Origin: Pirellula sp.
GTDB lineage: Bacteria > Planctomycetota > Planctomycetia > Pirellulales > Pirellulaceae
NCBI GenBank assembly: GCA_021299695.1
Contig: JAJTEK010000013.1
Span: forward strand, 46,589 to 100,128
Length of the DNA stretch: 53,540 bases
Direction of reading: 5' to 3'
Shown here: piece after piece, positions 3,377-19,819 of the stretch
How the letters are laid out: each line of letters begins with the position of its first letter
How positions within the stretch are numbered: position 1 is the first letter of the stretch
The notes under the pieces: generated by a model
The model's input: only the letters and a program-made list of their open reading frames with translations
What the model was told of the DNA's origin: nothing
The model's database searches: none
Made by a program: the position numbers and the translations under genes

Positions 3377-4390
3377 ATGGGCAAATCCGCATTGATTACC
3401 GGGATCACCGGACAAGATGGCTCCTACTTGGCTGAGCTGCTGCTCGAGAAAGGCTACCTCGTGCATGGACTCGTGCGACGCAGTTCGAGCTTTAGCACCG
3501 GACGTATCGACCACCTCTACAAAGATATCCACGAGAATCCCGGCCTGCTGCTCCATTACGGAGATCTGACCGATGGACAAGCCCTTACCAACTTGGTCCT
3601 GAACCTCGAACCCGATGAAATCTACAATCTCGGTGCCCAAAGCCATGTTCGTGTTTCGTTCGACCAGCCCGTCTACACGTTGATGACCGACGGAGTGGGG
3701 GCTTTGAATGTTCTCGAAGCAGCGAGAATTCTCAACCAAAAAAAGCAGGTCCGAGTTTACCAAGCGAGCTCCTCGGAGATGTATGGAGCGGTCCTGGAAA
3801 CCCCTCAAAAAGAATCCACCCCATTCAACCCCCAAAGCCCTTACGCCTGTGCTAAAGTCTACGCGTTCTTCCAAACCGTGAATTATCGCCGGAGCTATAA
3901 CCTGTTTGCCTGCAACGGTATCTTGTTCAACCATGAGTCCCCGCGACGCGGGGAAACCTTCGTGACTCGGAAAATCACCCGCGCCGCGACACGGATCAAA
4001 TTAGGGCTTCAGAAAAAACTATTTCTAGGCAACCTCGATGCAAAACGAGACTGGGGCTACGCCAAAGATTATGTCGAGGCGATGTGGCTTATGCTCCAGC
4101 ATCATCAACCTGATGATTTCGTTATCGCCACTGGGAATACTTACTCAATCCGTGAATTCCTACAGATGGTCTTTTCAAAACTCGACCTCGACTGGCAGAA
4201 ATTCGTCGAGATCGACCCTCGCTATTTCCGACCAGCGGAAGTGGAACTCCTGCTCGGTGACCCCTCGAAAGCCAAGAATTCCCTCGGTTGGACCTCCAAA
4301 ACATCCCTTGACGAACTCGCGTCGATCATGGTCGAACATGACCTTGAATTGGCTAAACGCGAACAACACAATCAGACGTTCCAACAGTAG
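3377..4390 (+). CDS. gmd: GDP-mannose 4,6-dehydratase
   Basis: Cytoplasmic NADP-dependent SDR enzyme that turns GDP-D-mannose into GDP-4-keto-6-deoxy-D-mannose, the precursor of GDP-L-fucose and other GDP-deoxysugars. The 337-residue protein has [16 protein letters not shown] at the N-terminus, [11 protein letters not shown], and the active-site block SSSEMYG with Ser132 and Glu134. Tyr156/Lys160 lie in SPYACAK and [16 protein letters not shown] follows. Numbering coincides with the E. coli enzyme, where residue 132 is Thr; Ser is an accepted substitute. It lies 86 bases after fcl and 27 bases before a paralogue, so the three genes are probably one operon. Confidence 0.95.
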
Positions 4391-4417: not shown

Positions 4418-5413
4418 ATGCGTGCAGTCATCACGGGAATCACCGGCCAAGATGGATCGTACTTGACCGATTTGCTTTTAGCCAAAGGCTATGAGGTTCA
4501 CGGGATCGTCCGCAGAAGCAGCACTCTACAACGGCCTAGGCTCGACCAACAGGTCCACGATCAATCGATCTATGGAAAGCGGTTGTTCCTACACTACTCC
4601 GACCTTACCGATACCACATCGCTCCGACGTATCCTCAGCAGGATCGTCCCTGATGAATTTTATCACCTCGCTGGCCAATCCCATGTCGGTCTAAGCTTTG
4701 AAATCCCCGAGAGCACCTGCGAATTGACCGCCATGGGTACGTTGCGGATCTTGGAAATCCTAAGGGACCTGTCTCCCTCTCCTCGTTTCCTACATGCAAG
4801 TAGCCGTGAAATCTTCGGGACCCCTATCTGTTCACCCCAAAACGAAGACACCCCTCTAAATCCAAACTCCCCCTATGGTGCAGCAAAAGCTTTTGCCAAC
4901 CAATTAGTCAAAATCTACCGAGACTCCTTAGGCCTCTTCGGTTGCAATGCCATTTGCTACAACCACGAGAGTCCCCGCCGAGCAGAAAATTTCGTCACGA
5001 GAAAAATCAGTATCGCCGCCGCATCGATCAAACTCGGACTCCAAAAAGAATTGATCCTTGGCAATATCGACTCGTCTCGAGATTGGGGATGCGCTCCTGA
5101 ATTCGTCGAAGCCATGTGGCTAATGCTTCAGCAGCCAAACCCCAAAGACTATATCCTTGCCACTGGCAAAACCCATAGCGTTCGTGAATTTCTCGAACTT
5201 GCATTCCAACATGTAGGACTCGATTGGAAAACCTACTACCGCCACGACCCACGGTTTCAACGCCCAGTTGAACCAGAGAATCTCAGGGGCGACGCAAGCC
5301 GTGCCTCAATCGAGCTTGGCTGGAAACCAAAAACATCCTTGGCGCAACTCGCCGCGATGATGGTCGATCATGATTTGTCTCGACTCGAGCAATCAATACT
5401 TGAAAAGCAATAG
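4418..5413 (+). CDS. Second GDP-mannose 4,6-dehydratase paralogue
   Basis: A 331-residue tandem paralogue of the preceding gene with the same architecture: [43 protein letters not shown] and NHESPRRAENFVTRKI. The Ser129/Glu131/Tyr153/Lys157 set is intact, but the residue between Ser and Glu, a Ser in the paralogue, is Arg130. Several substrate-side positions also differ. It most likely catalyses the same or a closely related GDP-sugar 4,6-dehydration; a different GDP-hexose substrate is possible. The gene converges with the minus-strand TPR gene, with only 7 bases between the stop codons. A T7 tract (5427-5433) just beyond its stop could help termination, although I see no strong stem before it. 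Confidence 0.88.
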   Translation: MRAVITGITGQDGSYLTDLLLAKGYEVHGIVRRSSTLQRPRLDQQVHDQSIYGKRLFLHYSDLTDTTSLRRILSRIVPDEFYHLAGQSHVGLSFEIPESTCELTAMGTLRILEILRDLSPSPRFLHASSREIFGTPICSPQNEDTPLNPNSPYGAAKAFANQLVKIYRDSLGLFGCNAICYNHESPRRAENFVTRKISIAAASIKLGLQKELILGNIDSSRDWGCAPEFVEAMWLMLQQPNPKDYILATGKTHSVREFLELAFQHVGLDWKTYYRHDPRFQRPVEPENLRGDASRASIELGWKPKTSLAQLAAMMVDHDLSRLEQSILEKQ

Positions 5414-5420
5414 AGCTGTG

Positions 5421-6857
5421 TTAACGTTTTTTTGGGTCGATCGAACCCTCTAAAACCTGCCATCGCTTCATTCGCTCATGCATCTGCTGTTGATTCTTAG
5501 AAGCCTCCTGCATCGCTACGATAAGGGATTGGGCCAGTCCTAGGGTTGACGGTTCATAACGGCAGGCTTGTTCAAGGTGCCAATCTCTTGACGTATCGTC
5601 TCCAGAGAGGCCCTTGCAAAACGAAAGACTCAAATGAACCATCGGTAGGTCCAAGCCCTCGACAAGCCATTGCTGAAGCTGCTTTTGAAGTTCCAGTAGC
5701 TCCGATTGAGGTCTCAGTAAGCTTCTAACCATGATGTCTTGGACCCTTGGGCCTGCACGACTGGTTCGAAGGAACTTCACCAAACAATACGCTACTTCTC
5801 TAAGGTCTCTAGGTTCCTTCAAAGCGGCCTCGGCCCGTCGCTCCATGGATGCAAGATAAGCATCTATCGAATCTTGATCCCGGTGGATCTTGTACCCTTC
5901 CAAGTTGACCTGCTCTGCCCTGCCCCACTCGCCGAGCGCTTCATAAAGGGACGCAAGCTGCACGCGGTAGGCTCGATTCCATGGATCGGAACGCAACCCC
6001 TCCCCCATTCGTTCAGCACCCGTTCTCAACACCGCCTGACGCTCTTGATCCTTTCCCAATCGCTTCAACAAGGCGGCAAAACCCAGGCTTTGCGAGAAAT
6101 CGGATTCAAATACCTTGCGGTACTTTGACTCCGCCTCGTCCAGCCGACCATCCCAGTACGCCTTCATCGATTCGAGCAAAGCAATCTGTTCAGGACGAAC
6201 CCCGCTGGCCCTCTCCAAATGCCAATCCAAATCCTCGAGCAGCTCGATCCGTTGGGATTCCCCGAGGTTTGACTCCTCCAACTTGCCGACACATTGACTG
6301 GCTTTCCAAAAATGCGCTATACCCAGTCCAGTTGAATCCCTTGGCGATAAGCCCTCAAGAATCCGCTCGGCGGATCCTGCGTTTCCATTCTGGATTTCTA
6401 CCAAAGAGTATAGGAACTTGCGGTCCGCGTTTGCATACTCCGTATCTCCAATCCAGCGCATCGCCGCCCGAACTCCTTTCGGTCCATCTTGTTTGCTGTA
6501 TGCATTTTGAACGCGAGCCAGATAACGGTTAAGAATCCGCTCACGATTGAACGCCACGAGCAAACAACTCGCCATCACGCTCGATGCTAGCACACAGAAA
6601 GGGATGCTACAGAGAAACGCTTGCCGACGCTTCCCTCGGTAAAAGAAACCCGCAATCGGATAGCTGATAAGTTTTGCTAGAAACCAGAAGAATTGGCCTA
6701 GTTTACGGTTCAACGATCTATAGAGACCAACTGGATGCCCCGAATCCTCAAAGTTCCCGCGATCTAGGAAGCCCGCGAAAAATCGAAGCGTTATTTCCAG
6801 AAGATCTGAGATCCACGCGATGATTCGAATAGGGAGATCCGTCAGAAATCTCAACAT
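5421..6857 (-). CDS. Membrane-anchored TPR-like repeat protein, exosortase partner 1
   Basis: About 478 residues. The first 70 residues are amphipathic or hydrophobic (MLRFLTDLPIRIIAW at the start), followed by a clear transmembrane segment near 80-105 (FLCSIPFCVLASSVMASCLL). After that comes a long alpha-helical region with TPR-like pairs such as AERILEGLSP and YEALGEWGRAEQVNLEGY. The repeat region probably faces the periplasm. I chose the ATG at 6857 because GAGGG lies 10 bases upstream, just after the exosortase stop codon; a longer frame from 6941 would overlap that gene. It directly follows the exosortase-like gene. A second membrane-anchored repeat protein follows the other exosortase in the same locus, so a shared role is inferred. 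No enzyme motif is visible. Confidence 0.75.
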   Translation of the reverse strand: MLRFLTDLPIRIIAWISDLLEITLRFFAGFLDRGNFEDSGHPVGLYRSLNRKLGQFFWFLAKLISYPIAGFFYRGKRRQAFLCSIPFCVLASSVMASCLLVAFNRERILNRYLARVQNAYSKQDGPKGVRAAMRWIGDTEYANADRKFLYSLVEIQNGNAGSAERILEGLSPRDSTGLGIAHFWKASQCVGKLEESNLGESQRIELLEDLDWHLERASGVRPEQIALLESMKAYWDGRLDEAESKYRKVFESDFSQSLGFAALLKRLGKDQERQAVLRTGAERMGEGLRSDPWNRAYRVQLASLYEALGEWGRAEQVNLEGYKIHRDQDSIDAYLASMERRAEAALKEPRDLREVAYCLVKFLRTSRAGPRVQDIMVRSLLRPQSELLELQKQLQQWLVEGLDLPMVHLSLSFCKGLSGDDTSRDWHLEQACRYEPSTLGLAQSLIVAMQEASKNQQQMHERMKRWQVLEGSIDPKKR

Positions 6858-6870
6858 ACAGGAAATACCC

Positions 6871-8391
6871 TCATCGAATCGAATCACCGATCGCTGCGCC
6901 GAAATCCAACTGCTTTTCGATCGCTTCGACCCCTCGAGCATGCAACTCTTTGTGCTCCTTGCGCTGCTTCTCGGTAATTGGACGCACCGACTCGTGCACC
7001 AGGGAAACCTGTACGACCGGTCCGGGTAACGTACTATCCCCGACGACCCGAACCCCCTTGGTCACGACATAAGCTTCTTCAACAATCGATCGTTTCAAGG
7101 CGAAGCTGAAGCTGCCGTTGTCTTCAGATAGCACAAGGTCGGGCTTCCAACCGTACCATCGCCAAAGCCAATCTGGTCTTGGTAACGCTATCCAAATCCC
7201 ATCGATACGAAGTTTCATGCTCCCCTCTCGGCTCTGATCTGGTGTCAGATCCCATTCCCAATGTTTCCAATCGGGAGTCTGTCGAAACACAGGGCTGAAG
7301 CTTTCCGTTGATTTCGTTGCCGGTCCAATCTTCCAACCTTCAACAGCCGACTCAAGCTTCAAACTCTCGACAGCCGAAATCGCTTCGTATTGCCGAAGGT
7401 TCAACCCCTGCGCCCACTGGCCCTTGTAGATTGACCAACCGCCGAGAAAAGCAATACCAACCAACATGGACCAAAGGACCATCCAGGGAACTTTCGAATC
7501 AGAAATATCTTTATCATTGGTCAACTCAATTTTTTTTGCGTCGATCGAAGTTTCCGATTCCTTGTCGCTAGATGGTCCAAAGAAGGCGGAGAAAAACTGA
7601 TCTCCGCTCCACGTGAGCAACGTGACGCTGGCAAAGAGAATCACAGATACGGTTCCGCTGTTATAAGAAACTTTCGTCGATTGCCTATCCTGCATAATCG
7701 CCTCGACTGCGATCCAGGCCCCTTGGGACACGATTGCCCAAAACAACAACACGCACAACAGATAAAGGAATCGAGGAAAGCGATAGCCGTTAAAGCATCC
7801 ATAGGCGATCGCCAACAAAATCATCGGGTAGATAAGCCTAAGGCCCGAGCACGATTCATTCTGTAGAAAATCAGTGCTGACCAACCCAATCACATTCCCT
7901 TTTGCAAAGTAGAAAACCTTGTAGATATCCAAAAGACAGCCGGCGAAACTACTAGCTAGCCATTGCGCAAGCGAGTGCACCCAAGGAGCAGTTTTCCATA
8001 AAGACAAAGGAACCATACACAGTACAAGCCCCAAATAGAACAAGCGGTTTGTAGAGAATCCCGCGACCAAGGCAATCAATGCGGCAAAGCACAAGCCTGC
8101 TGCACGAAAAACCCAAACCGGATCGTTTGATAGAACTCCTAAAAGGCACGTTCCAACAGCTGCCGAGACGAACAGAATCAAGTACCGAGCTCGGATCGGA
8201 TGCTCATCCGTACTCGATCGTGAAAATGGTGTCACCATTCCCGTCAAAACCATCAATGCGAACGCCAGGAAAAACAAAGCGAGGTCCATCGACAAACCCG
8301 CGAAAGCAATCTGCTTTAGCATCAACCCAATAGCGGTGGTTTGCATGGCTACTGCCGCGATTAGCAGTCCGATGGTTATCTTTTTATCCAT
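6871..8391 (-). CDS. Exosortase-like membrane protein with incomplete active site
   Basis: Polytopic protein of 506 residues: about eight hydrophobic segments in residues 5-265, a cytoplasmic-looking linker, another TM near 297-315, and a soluble C-terminal domain. Exosortases are membrane transpeptidases that recognise C-terminal sorting tags; their active site is Cys, Arg and usually His. Here NESCSGLR provides Cys181. An ungapped alignment with the other exosortase of this window places WAI on WAI (218-220 in both), so its Arg227 corresponds to Trp226 here. The GNLLR segment reads VSQGAW, and no His stands at the third site (SYNSGTVSV). The C-terminal domain resembles the region that many exosortases carry in place of a separate EpsI. 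It follows the wzc-like gene after a hairpin. Confidence 0.8.
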   Translation of the reverse strand: MDKKITIGLLIAAVAMQTTAIGLMLKQIAFAGLSMDLALFFLAFALMVLTGMVTPFSRSSTDEHPIRARYLILFVSAAVGTCLLGVLSNDPVWVFRAAGLCFAALIALVAGFSTNRLFYLGLVLCMVPLSLWKTAPWVHSLAQWLASSFAGCLLDIYKVFYFAKGNVIGLVSTDFLQNESCSGLRLIYPMILLAIAYGCFNGYRFPRFLYLLCVLLFWAIVSQGAWIAVEAIMQDRQSTKVSYNSGTVSVILFASVTLLTWSGDQFFSAFFGPSSDKESETSIDAKKIELTNDKDISDSKVPWMVLWSMLVGIAFLGGWSIYKGQWAQGLNLRQYEAISAVESLKLESAVEGWKIGPATKSTESFSPVFRQTPDWKHWEWDLTPDQSREGSMKLRIDGIWIALPRPDWLWRWYGWKPDLVLSEDNGSFSFALKRSIVEEAYVVTKGVRVVGDSTLPGPVVQVSLVHESVRPITEKQRKEHKELHARGVEAIEKQLDFGAAIGDSIR

Positions 8392-8439
8392 TTGACCAAC
8401 CGCCCTTTAGCTCAATCCAATCCAACGTCTCTAATGAAA

Positions 8440-8461
8440 GACGCGTCGATGTCGACGCGTC
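8440..8461. repeat. Perfect 10-base inverted repeat between wzc-like and exosortase-like genes
   Basis: The arms GACGCGTCGA and TCGACGCGTC are exact reverse complements separated by two bases. The site lies 61 bases past the wzc-like stop and 48 bases before the exosortase-like start. Read in the transcribed (minus) direction the stem is followed by TTT only. It could be a partial terminator, an mRNA processing or stability hairpin, or a dyad operator for the downstream pair. Confidence 0.6.
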
Positions 8462-8522
8462 ACTTAACACAAATCTAAGCCCGCACTATCTAGCGAACTT
8501 GGCTCCGGTGATGGCTGTAAAT

Positions 8523-11009
8523 CTAAGTGGACCGATCGCTCGAGACTCGATCTTCTTTACGTACCTTATCCGAATAATCAGAATATTTTTTGTCGTAATA
8601 GTTCTTGTAGGAATGCCCATGGTAATAAGCACCACGGTAGTACGTTCCGTATTCATTGTAATAAAGATTCTCGTCCATACCGTTGACGATAACGCCGATC
8701 AGATTCCCATTGACCATGTTTAATCGACTCTTGGCCTTGTGTGCCGATAACACCACACCACGGCGAATTCGCAAGACCATAACAATACCATCGACGAGCC
8801 CGCAAATCGAGGTCGCATCAGCAACCGGGATCACCGGCGGCGAATCGATCAAAATGAAGTCAAACCGATTTCTAAGCTCCCCGATGAACTCCAAGAACGA
8901 CTCCGAAGCGACGAGTTCTCCAGGGTTTTTCGGTCTCCCACCCGTGGTGACCAACCAAAGGTTCTTCTGAAAATCACAGGGCCTTAATGCCTCATCGAGG
9001 GTGCATTGACCTTCTAAATACTGCATCCCTCCGGGCTCGAACTGCACGCCGAAATTCTGCTGAACACGAGGGCGACGGTAATCCGCATCGACCAAGCATA
9101 CTCGCTTATTGGTTTGCGCTAGTGAAAGGGCTAGATTTGCAATCGTTGTCGATTTGCCATCCCCAGGAGATGGACTCGTGAACATAAAGACCTTGCCGCC
9201 GTTTTGAGCCGCTGTAAAGAGCAGCGATGTTCGAGCCGCTCGGAACGACTCGGATACCGAGGAATTCGGTTGATGTGCTGCCACAAGCATGGGCGAACCA
9301 GCAAAACCTGCCGGAACCTTGGATTTTTTAATCCTTGGAATCTTGCAAAGCACGGGTGTGTTGAGGTTTTCCTGAATGTCAATCGGTGTGCGGTATGCAA
9401 GATCCGAATGGTCTATGAGGACAGCCAAGCCGCAGCCTAGCAGCCCACCGAGAGCGAGCCCACCGAGAAGAAATTTCCATAGTTTCGGAAAAACTTGGCT
9501 CGGGTACGAGGCTTCATCAATGATCTTGACTCTTGTCGATGAGTACGAGTTGGACATGGCCCGCATGGCAGAGAGCCGCTCTAAGATCTGCCCGACGGTA
9601 TTGCGCCTTTCTTCGATCTGATCTCGCAGCATGTTGACTTCAGTGATTTCACCCGCGATCACCTTGGACTTTTCCGTCAACTCTGCGATATCCTCGGCAA
9701 TTCGATCCAGATTGTATTTTGACCGTTCTCGTTGATTCGATAGTGAAGCTGCATAGAGTTGGAGTATCTCGCTGTCCCTAGTCCTGACCTCTTTGGATAA
9801 CGCAACCGCGTACGATTGCAATAGCTCGCTGTCGGCGTTTTGAGTCCGTTTCGCGATTTCAGATCCCTTATTCTCAATATCTTGTTCGCTGGTCAAAAAG
9901 CCTCGCAGTGTTTCCAACTCCTGATTCAAGCGATTGCGTGTTGCGACCGCAGCTTGGTATTTCGCTTCTACAAATTCCACCTGAGGATGCTTTGCACCAT
10001 AGCGGGACATTGCCTCGGCTCGCTCTGAATCCATCGAAACGACCTCGGCATTCGCGGACTCCATCCGCTGTTCGTACCGAGTAAGTCGCAACCTATCCTC
10101 CTCCGACATCCCGTTGAGGAAGTCCATCCCCCGGTCTTGCTTGTCCAGGTTGAAGTACTTCCGTCCCTCAATGACCGCGAGCCTCAAAAGATCATCCCTC
10201 TGCGTTGCCGGATCCATCGCGGTTCGCAATTGCTCGAGTTGCTGATCCGCGTCGCGAAACTCCAAAAGAATATCGTCTCTCTCTAGCCGTAGTTTCTCGA
10301 TCTCCGAAACGTAAGGGTTAACCCACCGACCCTTGTCATTCTCTGCTGTCAAATTGAGTTCTTTGAGCAATTGGTAGTAACGATCCTGGTCCACTTTCTG
10401 ATCATCGACTAAGGAGCGTTGCAATCGCTCGATCAACTCGACGGACTCTTTTCCAGAGATCTCCGAGTCCTTTTCGATCGCTGAGATGTAGGAAGCCACG
10501 ACTTGATTCAAAATGCCAGGAAGATCCTCTTTGACTTTACCCTCACAGATGATCTCCAATGCATCCGAAGTCAGGTCCTTGCCTACCGGCGATATCGTCA
10601 ACATTTCACGCAGATCGACAATCGGAGAATCCACTCCACGGAACGTAACCAACTTGTCCAGTTGCCCGTTACGGATTGCCTCGGCAAGCACCATTTGGCC
10701 GGAAAGCAACACCCTATGTTTTTCCAAAGAAACCGTCTGAGGGACGACTTCTCCGTTGATCACGCTCGGTGGAGCCTGCACGAAAAGCATCAGTTTCATC
10801 ACCGACGCATACACCGGTGTGACCTGCGTGTAGAGCAAGCTAGCGACTGCCGCTCCGAGGACCGATAGAAGCACAATCACCGACTTACGACGCCACAATG
10901 CACCGTAAAAGTCAATCGTCGGCATCGGAGGCTCGTCAGATACGTTGGACCCGCGACCAGCAGAGCCAGAATCGTCGAACCCGTACTGCAAATTAGGCTT
11001 ATCCATCAT
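8523..11009 (-). CDS. Wzc-like polysaccharide co-polymerase with BY-kinase domain
   Basis: The 828-residue protein has the Wzz/GumC plus bacterial tyrosine kinase layout. A first TM lies near 43-62, followed by a long periplasmic region with coiled coil (about 170-480) and a second TM near 525-550. The cytoplasmic kinase has Walker A SPSPGDGKST (about 612-621), Walker A' VCLVDAD and Walker B FILIDSPP. The tail is unusually tyrosine rich, with 12 Tyr between about 783 and 812, the expected autophosphorylation cluster. Such proteins set chain length and drive export of capsule or exopolysaccharide, cycling with a phosphatase and working with an outer-membrane Wza channel. Neither partner is in the window. 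A dyad element lies 46 bases upstream of the start. Confidence 0.93.
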   Translation of the reverse strand: MMDKPNLQYGFDDSGSAGRGSNVSDEPPMPTIDFYGALWRRKSVIVLLSVLGAAVASLLYTQVTPVYASVMKLMLFVQAPPSVINGEVVPQTVSLEKHRVLLSGQMVLAEAIRNGQLDKLVTFRGVDSPIVDLREMLTISPVGKDLTSDALEIICEGKVKEDLPGILNQVVASYISAIEKDSEISGKESVELIERLQRSLVDDQKVDQDRYYQLLKELNLTAENDKGRWVNPYVSEIEKLRLERDDILLEFRDADQQLEQLRTAMDPATQRDDLLRLAVIEGRKYFNLDKQDRGMDFLNGMSEEDRLRLTRYEQRMESANAEVVSMDSERAEAMSRYGAKHPQVEFVEAKYQAAVATRNRLNQELETLRGFLTSEQDIENKGSEIAKRTQNADSELLQSYAVALSKEVRTRDSEILQLYAASLSNQRERSKYNLDRIAEDIAELTEKSKVIAGEITEVNMLRDQIEERRNTVGQILERLSAMRAMSNSYSSTRVKIIDEASYPSQVFPKLWKFLLGGLALGGLLGCGLAVLIDHSDLAYRTPIDIQENLNTPVLCKIPRIKKSKVPAGFAGSPMLVAAHQPNSSVSESFRAARTSLLFTAAQNGGKVFMFTSPSPGDGKSTTIANLALSLAQTNKRVCLVDADYRRPRVQQNFGVQFEPGGMQYLEGQCTLDEALRPCDFQKNLWLVTTGGRPKNPGELVASESFLEFIGELRNRFDFILIDSPPVIPVADATSICGLVDGIVMVLRIRRGVVLSAHKAKSRLNMVNGNLIGVIVNGMDENLYYNEYGTYYRGAYYHGHSYKNYYDKKYSDYSDKVRKEDRVSSDRST

Positions 11010-11054
11010 CGACCGCCTTTGACCCTCAGGGAGCGTTTCGACTCCCGATATTTT

Positions 11055-16575: not shown

Positions 16576-18207
16576 CTACTTCGAAGCCCCAATGCTCAAT
16601 CGCTTCCTTGCCTCCTGGAGCAGGCCATCAATGAGGCCTCTGTTGGGCGAGTTCGGACCGATACTTTCAAGATAGCCAATTGCAAGATCCCACTTTTGAT
16701 ATCGCATCGCCAGAACCGCCGAACCAATCTTTAGATCGAGACTGTTGGGAAACGCTCGATTGAAGGATTCGCAGATCGTACCGAGCCCCGCCCATGGAAC
16801 ACTTCTGGAACCGCTTTCCTGAATCCAATACGCTAGCAGACCTACGAATCCTTCAAGATCCCTCTCGGAAAAAACTGGAAAAGACTCCTCGTGTCCCTGC
16901 CCTCGTTCCCCTTGGCGATCCATGATCCGCTTGGTCCAATCTAACACCATAAGAAAGGTATCTTGGGTTGCCTCCGCTTCGACCACCATAAGCTCAAGCA
17001 ATGGATCTGAGCTCTGGGCCTGGTCAGCATCATAGTACCGATCGAGCAAATCAAGAACCTCGGGATGGTCCGATCCGATCCGAAGCATGGACCGAAAAAC
17101 GGAACCAGACAAAATCTCGCCAAATACTCCCTCGGGAAAAACTGACTTCGAGACCAGAGCGCGAAGTTCGCTTGCGACAATAACATGCCTTAGCAACTGT
17201 TGATCTTCTGGGGGAATAGCTTCGATGCGCGAAAGGACCGTTGCACTGGCTTCATCGATTCCCGAGACCAACATCAAACAACGAAAGAAAGCGTCGATCG
17301 CTCGTATTCTAATTTCGCTCGACCATTCATCACTCATGCGTTGCATGATCTGGGAGTGCTTGAGAATCGCTTCTCTAGCCTCTCGAATCGCACGCTGTGG
17401 ATCGACACTGGCGAGTCCCTCTACCAACCAAGCCTTGGTGATCAAATCACCCGGTGAACTTGCAGCGTTCGCAGTACTCCTGCTCAAACCCGTTTCCAAC
17501 CGTGCAATCCCCGAACGCAGCTGCGCTACCCGCTCGGAAACCTCTAACGCAGGGAATGCTCGATAGGCGTACTGCACTTCCAAAGCTCCGAGGATTTCGG
17601 CAATCTCAGCCGGTTCGAGGCTGTTGGAAAGTTGGCCCACGCGATCGATCATCGTGGGTACTCGCATTCGATCGTCTCGACACTTCTGCTTGAGCTTGAG
17701 CAGTTCGTCGCGGAGGATCCAGGCCTTTGCCCAAGCCGCATCAGGTCCTTCGAGTCGCGTCGCGCTGCGTATCGACTCCAGAGCGCGGTTCTTCGATCCG
17801 GAGACCAACTCTTTGCATCGCCGGCCATATTCGCTGGAATCGGGTGAAATATTCGCGAGAATCTGCTTGCCAGTCCGATCGATCTCCAAAGCGACTTCAG
17901 CGTGCATTCGCCGATACCGAGCTTCCGTAGGCGAATGGACCATCAATCGCTCTGCGGCTAGCTCCGCTCTACGCATCCTTGCAAACCACTGAGCCGTGCG
18001 GGTAGATGGGTTAGCAAGCTGTTCTGATTCAAATTCCACGTTCTGCGAACCGACTACCATCGCTTCATAACGACCCAATAAATTAGGCTCGACGAAAAAA
18101 TAGCTCAGCGCCATCGAGCTAAGAGTTACGCCCGCCAAAATCAGGGACGGAACTCCCCAACGCCAATAGGTTTCCCGCGTCTCAGGAAGATCTTTATCTG
18201 GATCCAT
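16576..18207 (-). CDS. Membrane-anchored helical repeat protein, exosortase partner 2
   Basis: A 543-residue protein with a short charged N-terminus, one transmembrane helix near residues 18-38 (WGVPSLILAGVTLSSMALSY), and a long alpha-helical region. That region is rich in Ala, Leu, Arg and Glu and looks like degenerate TPR repeats, for example AWAKAWILRDELLKLKQKC and YQKWDLAIGYLESIG near the end. The helical part probably faces the periplasm. Its start overlaps the end of the canonical exosortase gene by 14 bases, so the two are co-translated. The same order, exosortase then membrane-anchored repeat protein, recurs at 5421-8391. I do not recognise a named family and assign no enzymatic role. 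Confidence 0.75.
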   Translation of the reverse strand: MDPDKDLPETRETYWRWGVPSLILAGVTLSSMALSYFFVEPNLLGRYEAMVVGSQNVEFESEQLANPSTRTAQWFARMRRAELAAERLMVHSPTEARYRRMHAEVALEIDRTGKQILANISPDSSEYGRRCKELVSGSKNRALESIRSATRLEGPDAAWAKAWILRDELLKLKQKCRDDRMRVPTMIDRVGQLSNSLEPAEIAEILGALEVQYAYRAFPALEVSERVAQLRSGIARLETGLSRSTANAASSPGDLITKAWLVEGLASVDPQRAIREAREAILKHSQIMQRMSDEWSSEIRIRAIDAFFRCLMLVSGIDEASATVLSRIEAIPPEDQQLLRHVIVASELRALVSKSVFPEGVFGEILSGSVFRSMLRIGSDHPEVLDLLDRYYDADQAQSSDPLLELMVVEAEATQDTFLMVLDWTKRIMDRQGERGQGHEESFPVFSERDLEGFVGLLAYWIQESGSRSVPWAGLGTICESFNRAFPNSLDLKIGSAVLAMRYQKWDLAIGYLESIGPNSPNRGLIDGLLQEARKRLSIGASK

Positions 18208-19819
18208 CGGCTCGCTGGCTCCTGACCATTGCTAGTGCGTTGGCCGATTGCGATACGACCTGTACCCGACTTTCAAGGAAAATCTTGCGAAGAAAGCCCA
18301 GTTGCTCCTCGGATGGCAATGCGCTCGTGTAGGCGATCTGCTGAAACTGAAAGGTCATCGGCTCGTGCGCTCGATCACCAGGCCGCTCGCGGTTTAATAT
18401 CGTGTTTGCCCACCGACCACTTTGCGTCCGAAAATCAACCGAGCCCTCGTACTTATAAGGGTTTGCTTGCTGGTCGAAAAGGGAAAAATGAAGGATCGCA
18501 AGATCCCCCAGATCGTTTCTCAAAACCGTCTCGAAAAATGAGGCACCCTCAGTTTCGATCAACTCCGAGCGCTCTCTATGCCATCCTGAATTGATGTAGC
18601 ACTCCCAAAGGGGATGCCAACCCCGAAATGGAAAATCAAGACTCAAGGTTAAACGCCCAAGATCGCTCGATAGTTCCCAGATCCGAGAATGCTGACCCAA
18701 CATATCGTTTCGATCCCGGTAGGCGGTATGGAAGCCCACCACCTCTGAGCCGCTCGGTGCAACCAAGTCGGAGGCTCCTGGAAATGCACCTGACTCCTCT
18801 TGAGTAATGCTGGGCAAATCAGGACTCGCATGGAACTCCATGACTGCCCGCACGCTCTCTGGAAAAAAAACAAACAGACACAACGGAAAAAAAGCCCAAC
18901 CCAATCCCAATCGCCCAATGGAATGCAACTCGCCTTCTGCAGCACCCTTACTCTTAGAAGCTGTCTTCAAATCTAGCTGACTGGCTGACCATCTCAAGTG
19001 CAAATAGTTAAGAAACTGAACCGAACTCCAGTGCACCCAAGCTGTAAATACAAATACTCCGAGCCCCAAAAAAGTATGCGTCGTTCCGTGCGACAAATCG
19101 ATTCCAAACCACTCCAGTCCAATGACGATCAGATAAATGCGAAGTAGATTTCCCAAGATCGCCCAAATCGGAACCGTTAGGATCGTGACCAAACTGACCC
19201 ACCAATGGGCCCGCCCCAGGAGGAGTAGCACACCAGCGACTGCCATTAGAGCATACTGACTATCGACTCCACTACAGGCTTCCTCAACAAACAAAGGTTT
19301 GCTAGGAACCTCGATGATGTTGCCTCGCCGAACGTGCACGATATTTGTCAAGTCCATCAAGCGACTGCATGCGATGGAGGAAAAGGACTGTAATCCGCTG
19401 ATGAGTCGCTTGTCCCATCCCAAGGGCGCGGGCAATGTGACGACCAGCAATCCGCATATTCCGACGACTCGCAACACACTGAGCCCCGGTCTTGCCAGGA
19501 GCGCCCAAGTCCCTACCAACATGATCGCAACGAAATGCGATAACCATGGACTCCCAAGATACAATGCCAGCATCGCCGAAAGCATAGATAGGAGCCATGC
19601 TCCAATCACCAATTCACCCGGACGAAAGTATCTCTTGGAGGGATCGGATTGACCAAGAAAGTAGACGCAAGCAGCAACAGCTAAAGGGAAAAATTGCAAA
19701 TGGGGCTTTTGCATCAAGATACGGCATTGCATGTAAAGGAGCGGTGATAAAGCGATCAATGGCAATATCAATGCAATCCAATTCCATCGATTCAGGCGTG
19801 CTGGGTTATCGTTCGACAC
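18194..19819 (-). CDS. Exosortase with full Cys/Arg/His active site, planctomycete type with C-terminal EpsI-like domain
   Basis: A 541-residue integral membrane cysteine transpeptidase expected to process proteins with a C-terminal sorting tag (PEP-CTERM-like) and link them to envelope or exopolysaccharide. Hydrophobic segments fill residues 12-270. The active site is complete: Cys182 in VEEACSGVDSQ, Arg227 in GNLLRIYL and His248 in HGTTHTFLG. After a last TM the soluble C-terminal domain has GWHPLWECYINSGW, typical of the EpsI-like domain that some exosortases carry fused. The arrangement resembles the planctomycete class called exosortase U, although I cannot confirm the subclass. Its start overlaps the preceding GT2 gene by 14 bases. 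No protein with a recognisable sorting tag is encoded in this window. Confidence 0.9.
   Translation of the reverse strand: MSNDNPARLNRWNWIALILPLIALSPLLYMQCRILMQKPHLQFFPLAVAACVYFLGQSDPSKRYFRPGELVIGAWLLSMLSAMLALYLGSPWLSHFVAIMLVGTWALLARPGLSVLRVVGICGLLVVTLPAPLGWDKRLISGLQSFSSIACSRLMDLTNIVHVRRGNIIEVPSKPLFVEEACSGVDSQYALMAVAGVLLLLGRAHWWVSLVTILTVPIWAILGNLLRIYLIVIGLEWFGIDLSHGTTHTFLGLGVFVFTAWVHWSSVQFLNYLHLRWSASQLDLKTASKSKGAAEGELHSIGRLGLGWAFFPLCLFVFFPESVRAVMEFHASPDLPSITQEESGAFPGASDLVAPSGSEVVGFHTAYRDRNDMLGQHSRIWELSSDLGRLTLSLDFPFRGWHPLWECYINSGWHRERSELIETEGASFFETVLRNDLGDLAILHFSLFDQQANPYKYEGSVDFRTQSGRWANTILNRERPGDRAHEPMTFQFQQIAYTSALPSEEQLGFLRKIFLESRVQVVSQSANALAMVRSQRADGSR

Follow-up and report, generated by a model that had tools for sequence, protein, structure and literature searches.

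A degenerate exosortase homolog encoded next to Wzc in Pirellula, with an intact exosortase in the same polysaccharide locus

Besides the Cys-x-Gly motif, exosortases of the EpsH family have two other invariant motifs, N-x-x-R and H-x-x-x-G, and the exosortase triad lies on the outer face of the membrane, as described in the report on this family (Haft et al. 2006, PMC1569441). That report describes EpsI as a protein without known function, mentions EpsI-like regions fused to EpsH proteins, and states that disruption of EpsH in Methylobacillus left methanolan production unaffected. We analyzed a stretch of 53,540 nucleotides (the window) from Pirellula sp., a freshwater planctomycete (GCA_021299695.1, contig JAJTEK010000013.1). 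It contains two exosortase-like genes, pXrt and XrtU, whose positions had been given correctly in a sequence-only reading of this DNA. Both lie on the minus strand, as do the following neighbors.

8391-6871, minus strand: pXrt (P0001), degenerate exosortase of 506 aa; open frame with a PF09721 match, member of a clade of 12
5421..6941, minus strand: TPR1, membrane TPR-like protein coupled to pXrt
8523..11009, minus strand: Wzc-type polysaccharide co-polymerase and tyrosine autokinase (TIGR01007, 140.2 bits, cut-off 108.05)
16576..18207, minus strand: TPR2, following XrtU with a 14 bp overlap; called TPR by position and gene-order analogy, without a Pfam match
18194..19819, minus strand: XrtU (P0002), intact exosortase of 541 aa (NF033780, 95.1 bits, cut-off 40)

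TPR1 more likely starts from the ATG at 6857 than from 6941, which lies inside pXrt.

Catalytic positions of pXrt and its clade

The positions of pXrt that correspond to the exosortase triad are as follows.

7849..7851, minus strand: Cys181 codon (TGC), exosortase nucleophile position
7714..7716, minus strand: Trp226 codon (TGG), at the exosortase Arg position
7657..7659, minus strand: Ser245 codon; one alignment has His in this column in all 49 intact rows, and other alignments have a gap

pXrt matched the Pfam exosortase model PF09721 (33.2 bits, cut-off 25.7) and scored below the cut-off of every NCBIfam exosortase model, the best being XrtD with 40.3 of 400 bits. TIGR02602 gave 26.3 bits (cut-off 105.55), and neither TIGR04178 nor NF033780, the C-terminal model of exosortase U, had a match at E <= 1. 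The Cys-x-Gly motif is present as CSG at residues 181-183. The Asn-x-x-Arg motif is absent, with Gln223 and Trp226 in its place, and so is the His-x-x-x-Gly motif: as the sequence-only reading had noticed, there is no His at the third position, none occurring between residues 226 and 261. Starting at CSG, the ungapped alignment proposed in that reading also holds, pairing C181 with C182, WAI at 218-220 with WAI at 219-221, and W226 with R227 (pXrt and XrtU, respectively). XrtU has a complete triad (Cys182, Arg227 and His248) and a C-terminal His402/Cys407 pair. An AF2 model of pXrt (16 sequences; mean pLDDT 79.5, pTM 0.76) contained about ten helices, in line with the at least eight membrane helices required of an exosortase, as well as a hairpin (residues 161-170) preceding Cys181 and, starting near residue 330, a C-terminal domain, which is predicted to lie on the outer face. 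The XrtU model was poorer (pLDDT 68.5, pTM 0.53). A PDB sequence search gave no useful match and no solved exosortase, and Foldseek searches with both models gave no match at E <= 0.001.

A pXrt profile was searched in 241 genomes of the family Pirellulaceae and detected 12 full-length clade members (520-747 bits) in 11 genomes, all belonging to the genus of the window; two contig-end fragments were additionally present in G005, and the next match below the clade scored 171 bits. Among 396 genomes drawn from the order no further member was found, the six full-length matches all being of the genus, and the named records are Pirellula or Planctomycetota MAGs. In a 70-row tree computed without the catalytic columns, the 12 members formed one clade with support of 100/100. 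Its closest sister is unsure (62/85 for two frames, L047 and L048). An origin of pXrt as a tandem duplicate of the window's own XrtU was rejected, pXrt being on a separate branch and the XrtU branch being well supported.

All 12 members have open frames and all lack the third-residue His. The Arg is kept in seven and replaced by Trp in three, Gly in one and Met in one; thus, the Trp emphasized in the sequence-only reading is real in pXrt and is a late, local change in a group of three that includes pXrt, not a property of the clade. Because orthologs with 85% and 79% identity in two other genomes also have Trp, Trp226 is not an assembly error; with Trp common to three genomes and the frames open, we rejected a sequencing, assembly or frameshift artifact. 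The Cys is kept in nine members, pXrt included, and is Gly in L007 and Phe in L010 and L012, so that the retained nucleophile, correctly read in pXrt, is not a clade feature. On the tree, His is lost throughout the clade, Arg changes three times and Cys twice. It had been proposed that orthologs with an Arg at this column would show the site to be complete. Such orthologs exist, as counted above, and their site is still incomplete, since they too lack the His.

Compared with 49 intact rows, selected by the presence of Cys, Arg and His, the clade has lost or relaxed the exosortase columns N223, R226 and H245 and the C-terminal columns 404 (His), 409 (Cys) and 463 (Gln). Columns Q143, D155, G165, G183, W218, W380, G414 and W415 are kept by 12/12 members. 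New residues have also appeared: W408 and W410 in 11/12 and W412 in 12/12 members (each in 0/49 intact rows), and P189 clade-wide. Could pXrt still be an enzyme, with Cys181 working together with other residues, such as R185 or one supplied by another protein? Cys181 persists in most members, the Cys motif is identical in the three nearest genomes, R185 is kept in 10/12, and in archaeosortase ArtA the third catalytic residue differs as well. However, three members with open frames have Gly or Phe in place of the Cys, the C-terminal His and Cys are gone, and H139, the one clade-specific His (9/12 members), should be at the cytoplasmic end of its helix, on the inner face, judging from the pXrt model and the outer-face position of the triad. 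We consider continued catalysis improbable. A transpeptidase with a different residue set, one of the options of the sequence-only reading, is likewise disfavored, because the nucleophile is lost in 3/12 members and H139 should be cytoplasmic. Another of its options, a regulator or chaperone of the active copy, may apply to pXrt.

Selection was examined by comparing dN/dS among the three genomes in which pXrt has neither Arg nor His. The values for pXrt were 0.18, 0.22 and 0.25; in the same locus they were 0.14-0.17 for XrtU, 0.15-0.20 for TPR1, 0.25-0.28 for TPR2 and 0.013-0.023 for Wzc. pXrt is constrained, somewhat less than XrtU, and the gene is not decaying. A slowly decaying relic that is kept by its place in the middle of an operon would be consistent with the loss of catalytic residues and with fast divergence (the 8 most distant members share 17-35% identity with P0001), but the intact frames of all members, the dN/dS values after the loss of Arg and His, and the gain of W408, W410, W412 and P189 argue against it and make it the least probable of the explanations considered. 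pXrt thus combines lost catalytic residues with purifying selection, as expected of a pseudoenzyme. This possibility, also raised in the sequence-only reading, is supported by the clade-wide loss of His, the separate losses of Arg and Cys, purifying selection and the loss of the C-terminal pair, and pXrt is probably inactive as an exosortase.

Gene order around Wzc and degenerate exosortases elsewhere

Read along the minus strand, the locus consists of XrtU-TPR2, sugar genes, a glycosyltransferase, Wzc and pXrt-TPR1. Wzc, which has a Walker A motif and 12 Tyr in its last 50 residues, is directly upstream of pXrt with a gap of 131 bp. Wzc occupied this position in 12/12 clade members and TPR1 followed pXrt in 11/12, the contig of G004 ending there. 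XrtU was on the same contig for 8/12 pXrt copies; the other four (in G013, G004, G008 and G025) were on contigs of 4.8-10.8 kb that showed no further exosortase. The two G008 contigs, one with XrtU and one with pXrt, both break off within Wzc, the former at its end and the latter at its beginning, as if one locus had been cut. G001 possessed two such loci, each with pXrt and XrtU, the second XrtU being partly covered by the stretch read, with its triad outside. Two tandem plus-strand genes of the window (3377-4390 and 4418-5413), which we take to encode GDP-mannose dehydratase-type enzymes, form a pair that is conserved in G010, G001, G014 and G011.

We identified further degenerate exosortases in the same family. 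In genus g79, 5/5 two-exosortase loci read had the order intact exosortase, Wzc, degenerate exosortase. At the three catalytic positions the degenerate copies have NRA, SRP, NRP, CRP and CKS, and all lack the His/Cys pair. In the tree these copies are placed apart from the pXrt clade (clade 1). A single origin of both was rejected (lnL 118.8 lower, p-AU 9.7e-6), and the g79 copies degenerated independently of clade 1. The independent loss of the active site at the same place suggests that pXrt has a second, non-enzymatic job. A third case is a locus of G119 (L247), which has an intact exosortase, Wzc and then a CCH copy (Cys at the Arg column) that keeps the His/Cys pair and does not adjoin Wzc. 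In another locus of this genome (C405, L205), one of two exosortases is CRQ, with no Wzc between them. Both G119 loci thus contain an intact exosortase and a single-change copy with the His/Cys pair kept, and these copies possibly represent early stages of degeneration.

When Wzc lies between two exosortases, the downstream copy was degenerate in 14/14 fetched loci (the window, L095-L101, L247 and L267-L271) and the upstream copy was intact in all 13 of them where it was fully seen. We also built a census of exosortase-like frames, which contained 142 distinct ones with a length of 430 aa or more, shorter frames and repeats being dropped; these frames were collected by similarity to the family of pXrt and hence are no random sample. 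For 115 census exosortases at least 700 bp of upstream DNA was available. Wzc was directly upstream in 23 of these, 17 of which are degenerate (12 of clade 1 and five of g79) and six intact, compared to 8/92 degenerate copies without Wzc directly upstream (Fisher test, 7.6e-10, a value that ignores relatedness, the independent origins numbering two, or three with G119). An upstream exosortase was in view for 13 of the 17 degenerate copies, the other four being on short contigs. None of the six intact Wzc-downstream copies (L272-L277) shows a second exosortase; a distant one could be missed there, because 6.3-7.7 kb beyond Wzc is visible in only four of the six loci, and in two-exosortase loci the second gene is 1.7-7.2 kb away. 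We rejected the rule that a lone exosortase downstream of Wzc is always intact, given the four degenerate clade members on short contigs without a second gene in view. Two exosortases without Wzc between them, both intact, were found in G149, G168, G193 and G194, and G015 has two intact exosortases with Wzc in another order. The combination of two exosortases in a locus, one of them degenerate, had struck the sequence-only reading as undescribed; two per locus are not rare in the family, and the new element is which copy degenerates.

A separate group, clade 2 (L191-L195), includes degenerate copies of G009 (CRA), G017 (CRA), G015 (CRA), G016 (YRP) and G002 (LKA). All five are located away from Wzc and adjoin a gene related to TgpA-like transglutaminase, together with a TPR gene; a prepilin-peptidase-related gene follows in three of the five loci and was not seen in G002, and the G017 locus is cut by a contig end. 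The initial guess from gene size that clade 2 occupies the same Wzc slot was dropped, as Pfam assigned the neighbor to TgpA-type transglutaminases. Relatives of clade 2 in G020 and G023 (L018, L113) keep the triad and have already lost the His/Cys pair, and another relative, L180 of G021, is CRY. All three scanned clade 2 members scored above the NCBIfam 'exosortase U' cut-off through the C-terminal domain, a warning to annotators that degenerate copies can still score as exosortase U. For L047 and L048, in which His is changed to Leu, no Wzc was seen in the upstream DNA (approximately 9 kb for L047, none for L048). L047 (L198, G128 7113-11030) is near a transglutaminase-like gene in a different setting, with ATP-grasp genes; transglutaminases are thus found near degenerate exosortases in two lineages.

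One alternative is that pXrt works specifically with XrtU, in a heteromer in which pXrt has no catalytic part and either presents substrate to the active copy or regulates it. For the 8/12 clade copies and 5/5 g79 copies noted above, the contig also carries an intact exosortase, and each of the two G001 loci has both genes (with the second XrtU triad outside the stretch). However, the neighbors that stay constant in both pXrt loci and single-exosortase loci are Wzc and the TPR gene, and gene order alone cannot separate contact with XrtU from contact with Wzc. We regard this partnership as unlikely, although less so than continued catalysis.

The C-terminal domain and EpsI

The C-terminal domains differ at the following places.

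18599..18616, minus strand: XrtU codons 402-407, the His-x4-Cys that is also present in EpsI
7147..7170, minus strand: pXrt residues 408-415, the gained WxWxWxGW

Profile comparison with hhalign shows pXrt and XrtU to have homologous C-terminal domains (98.0%, P 2e-13), and part of the H-x4-C-x4-GW of XrtU aligns where pXrt has residues 408-415. The EpsI-type His-x4-Cys-x4-Gly-Trp is absent from pXrt, in which Pro replaces the His and Leu the Cys. H-x4-C-x4-G[WFY] occurred in 22/30 EpsI (PF11984) loci obtained by searching 199 genomes of the phylum. Profiles of the XrtU C-terminal domain and of EpsI, both sets having been selected by this motif, aligned over 107 columns (94.8%, P 5e-8), and when the motif was masked in both sets the same 107-column region was recovered with a weaker score (30%, P 5.5e-4). 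Direct comparison of pXrt with EpsI gave no significant profile match (0.9%). As XrtU carries the EpsI motif H-x4-C-x4-GW, EpsI may use this His/Cys pair as a functional site. Both C-terminal domains also had weak helix-grip matches (START, PYR1 or Bet v 1) at E >= ~0.05, among unrelated entries, which at most hint at binding of lipid or another hydrophobic ligand by EpsI-like domains. The Trp-rich C-terminal domain of pXrt may bind a lipid-linked glycan or a substrate.

In the census, 105 of 115 full-triad frames had the His/Cys pair, in six it was absent or incomplete and four had no such domain; among 27 broken-triad frames, 25 were without the pair and two had it. Across four independent tree pairs, loss of the triad and loss of His/Cys went together in two, with none against and two neutral (p 0.5), and the joint loss is therefore a pattern, not a proven correlation. 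If it holds, it would mark the EpsI-like His-x4-Cys as a second functional site working with the exosortase triad, and the 25/27 losses make the EpsI-type pair a concrete residue-level target.

A possible non-catalytic role and comparison with known systems

We favor, with a probability of about 0.55, the reading that pXrt is a pseudo-exosortase, maintained for some non-catalytic role next to Wzc and a TPR partner, with XrtU doing the chemistry. According to this reading, pXrt would be an exosortase-fold membrane protein of about ten helices and an outer C-terminal domain, and would have ceased to cleave or transfer sorting signals. It would be retained for a structural or binding function within the machinery of polysaccharide export, adjacent to Wzc and the membrane TPR protein and perhaps in contact with Wzc, TPR1 or XrtU, and catalysis would be performed by XrtU, whose gene is upstream of Wzc in this locus. 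A lone exosortase downstream of Wzc might do both jobs; once a second exosortase-TPR pair is present upstream, the Wzc-side copy could lose the catalytic residues of both domains and keep its fold and place. Several observations count against this reading: the full pattern has two independent origins, or three with G119, the Cys is still present in 9/12 clade members including the window's pXrt, clade 2 degenerated away from Wzc, and G015 has two intact exosortases with Wzc in the other order.

Some substrates may be handled by an enzyme other than XrtU, because the window's genome contains a third exosortase and 23 PEP-CTERM matches, which are possible sorting substrates. The third exosortase is of a short type with a full triad and lies on another contig (L111, G000:C69:83000-95000), with a Wzc-like gene and a match to EpsI (PF11984; G000:C69:96884-97339) nearby. 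PEP-CTERM matches were observed at the locus edge (G000:C70:45275-46014, just before the window; G010:C161:35943; G001:C161:34797; G014:C47:90662), and others lie close after pXrt-TPR1 (G008:C128:7613 and G019:C11:41391); these are candidate substrates.

More tentatively, and at somewhat less than even odds, Wzc-coupled exosortases in general may serve polysaccharide export in a second, non-catalytic way that is separable from sorting, with the Wzc-side copy repeatedly stripped to a scaffold when another exosortase sorts, and with the joint loss marking His-x4-Cys as the second site. pXrt bears on the questions of why exosortases are located in polysaccharide loci and what EpsI does; next to Wzc, it amounts to a natural separation-of-function mutant that could part a sorting role from an export role. 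We found no paper on a degenerate or pseudo-exosortase in the open literature searched, and none with both 'exosortase' and 'XrtU'; the 2012 paper on exosortase classes was outside this scope, and novelty is uncertain.

Among known systems, pXrt resembles exosortase/EpsH (PF09721, TIGR02602) in its membrane fold, its C-x-G motif and its polysaccharide-locus setting, but differs in having neither N-x-x-R nor H-x-x-x-G and in falling under all NCBIfam exosortase cut-offs. With exosortase U (XrtU, NF033780) it shares the two-domain layout and a homologous C-terminal domain, but it has no NF033780 match at E <= 1 and belongs to a branch separate from the window's XrtU. EpsI/DUF3485 (PF11984, TIGR02914) resembles the C-terminal domain of XrtU and has the same H-x4-C-x4-G[WFY], whereas pXrt has lost that His and Cys. 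Finally, pXrt resembles pseudoenzymes in general in that its fold persists without the catalytic residues and an active relative occurs alongside it.
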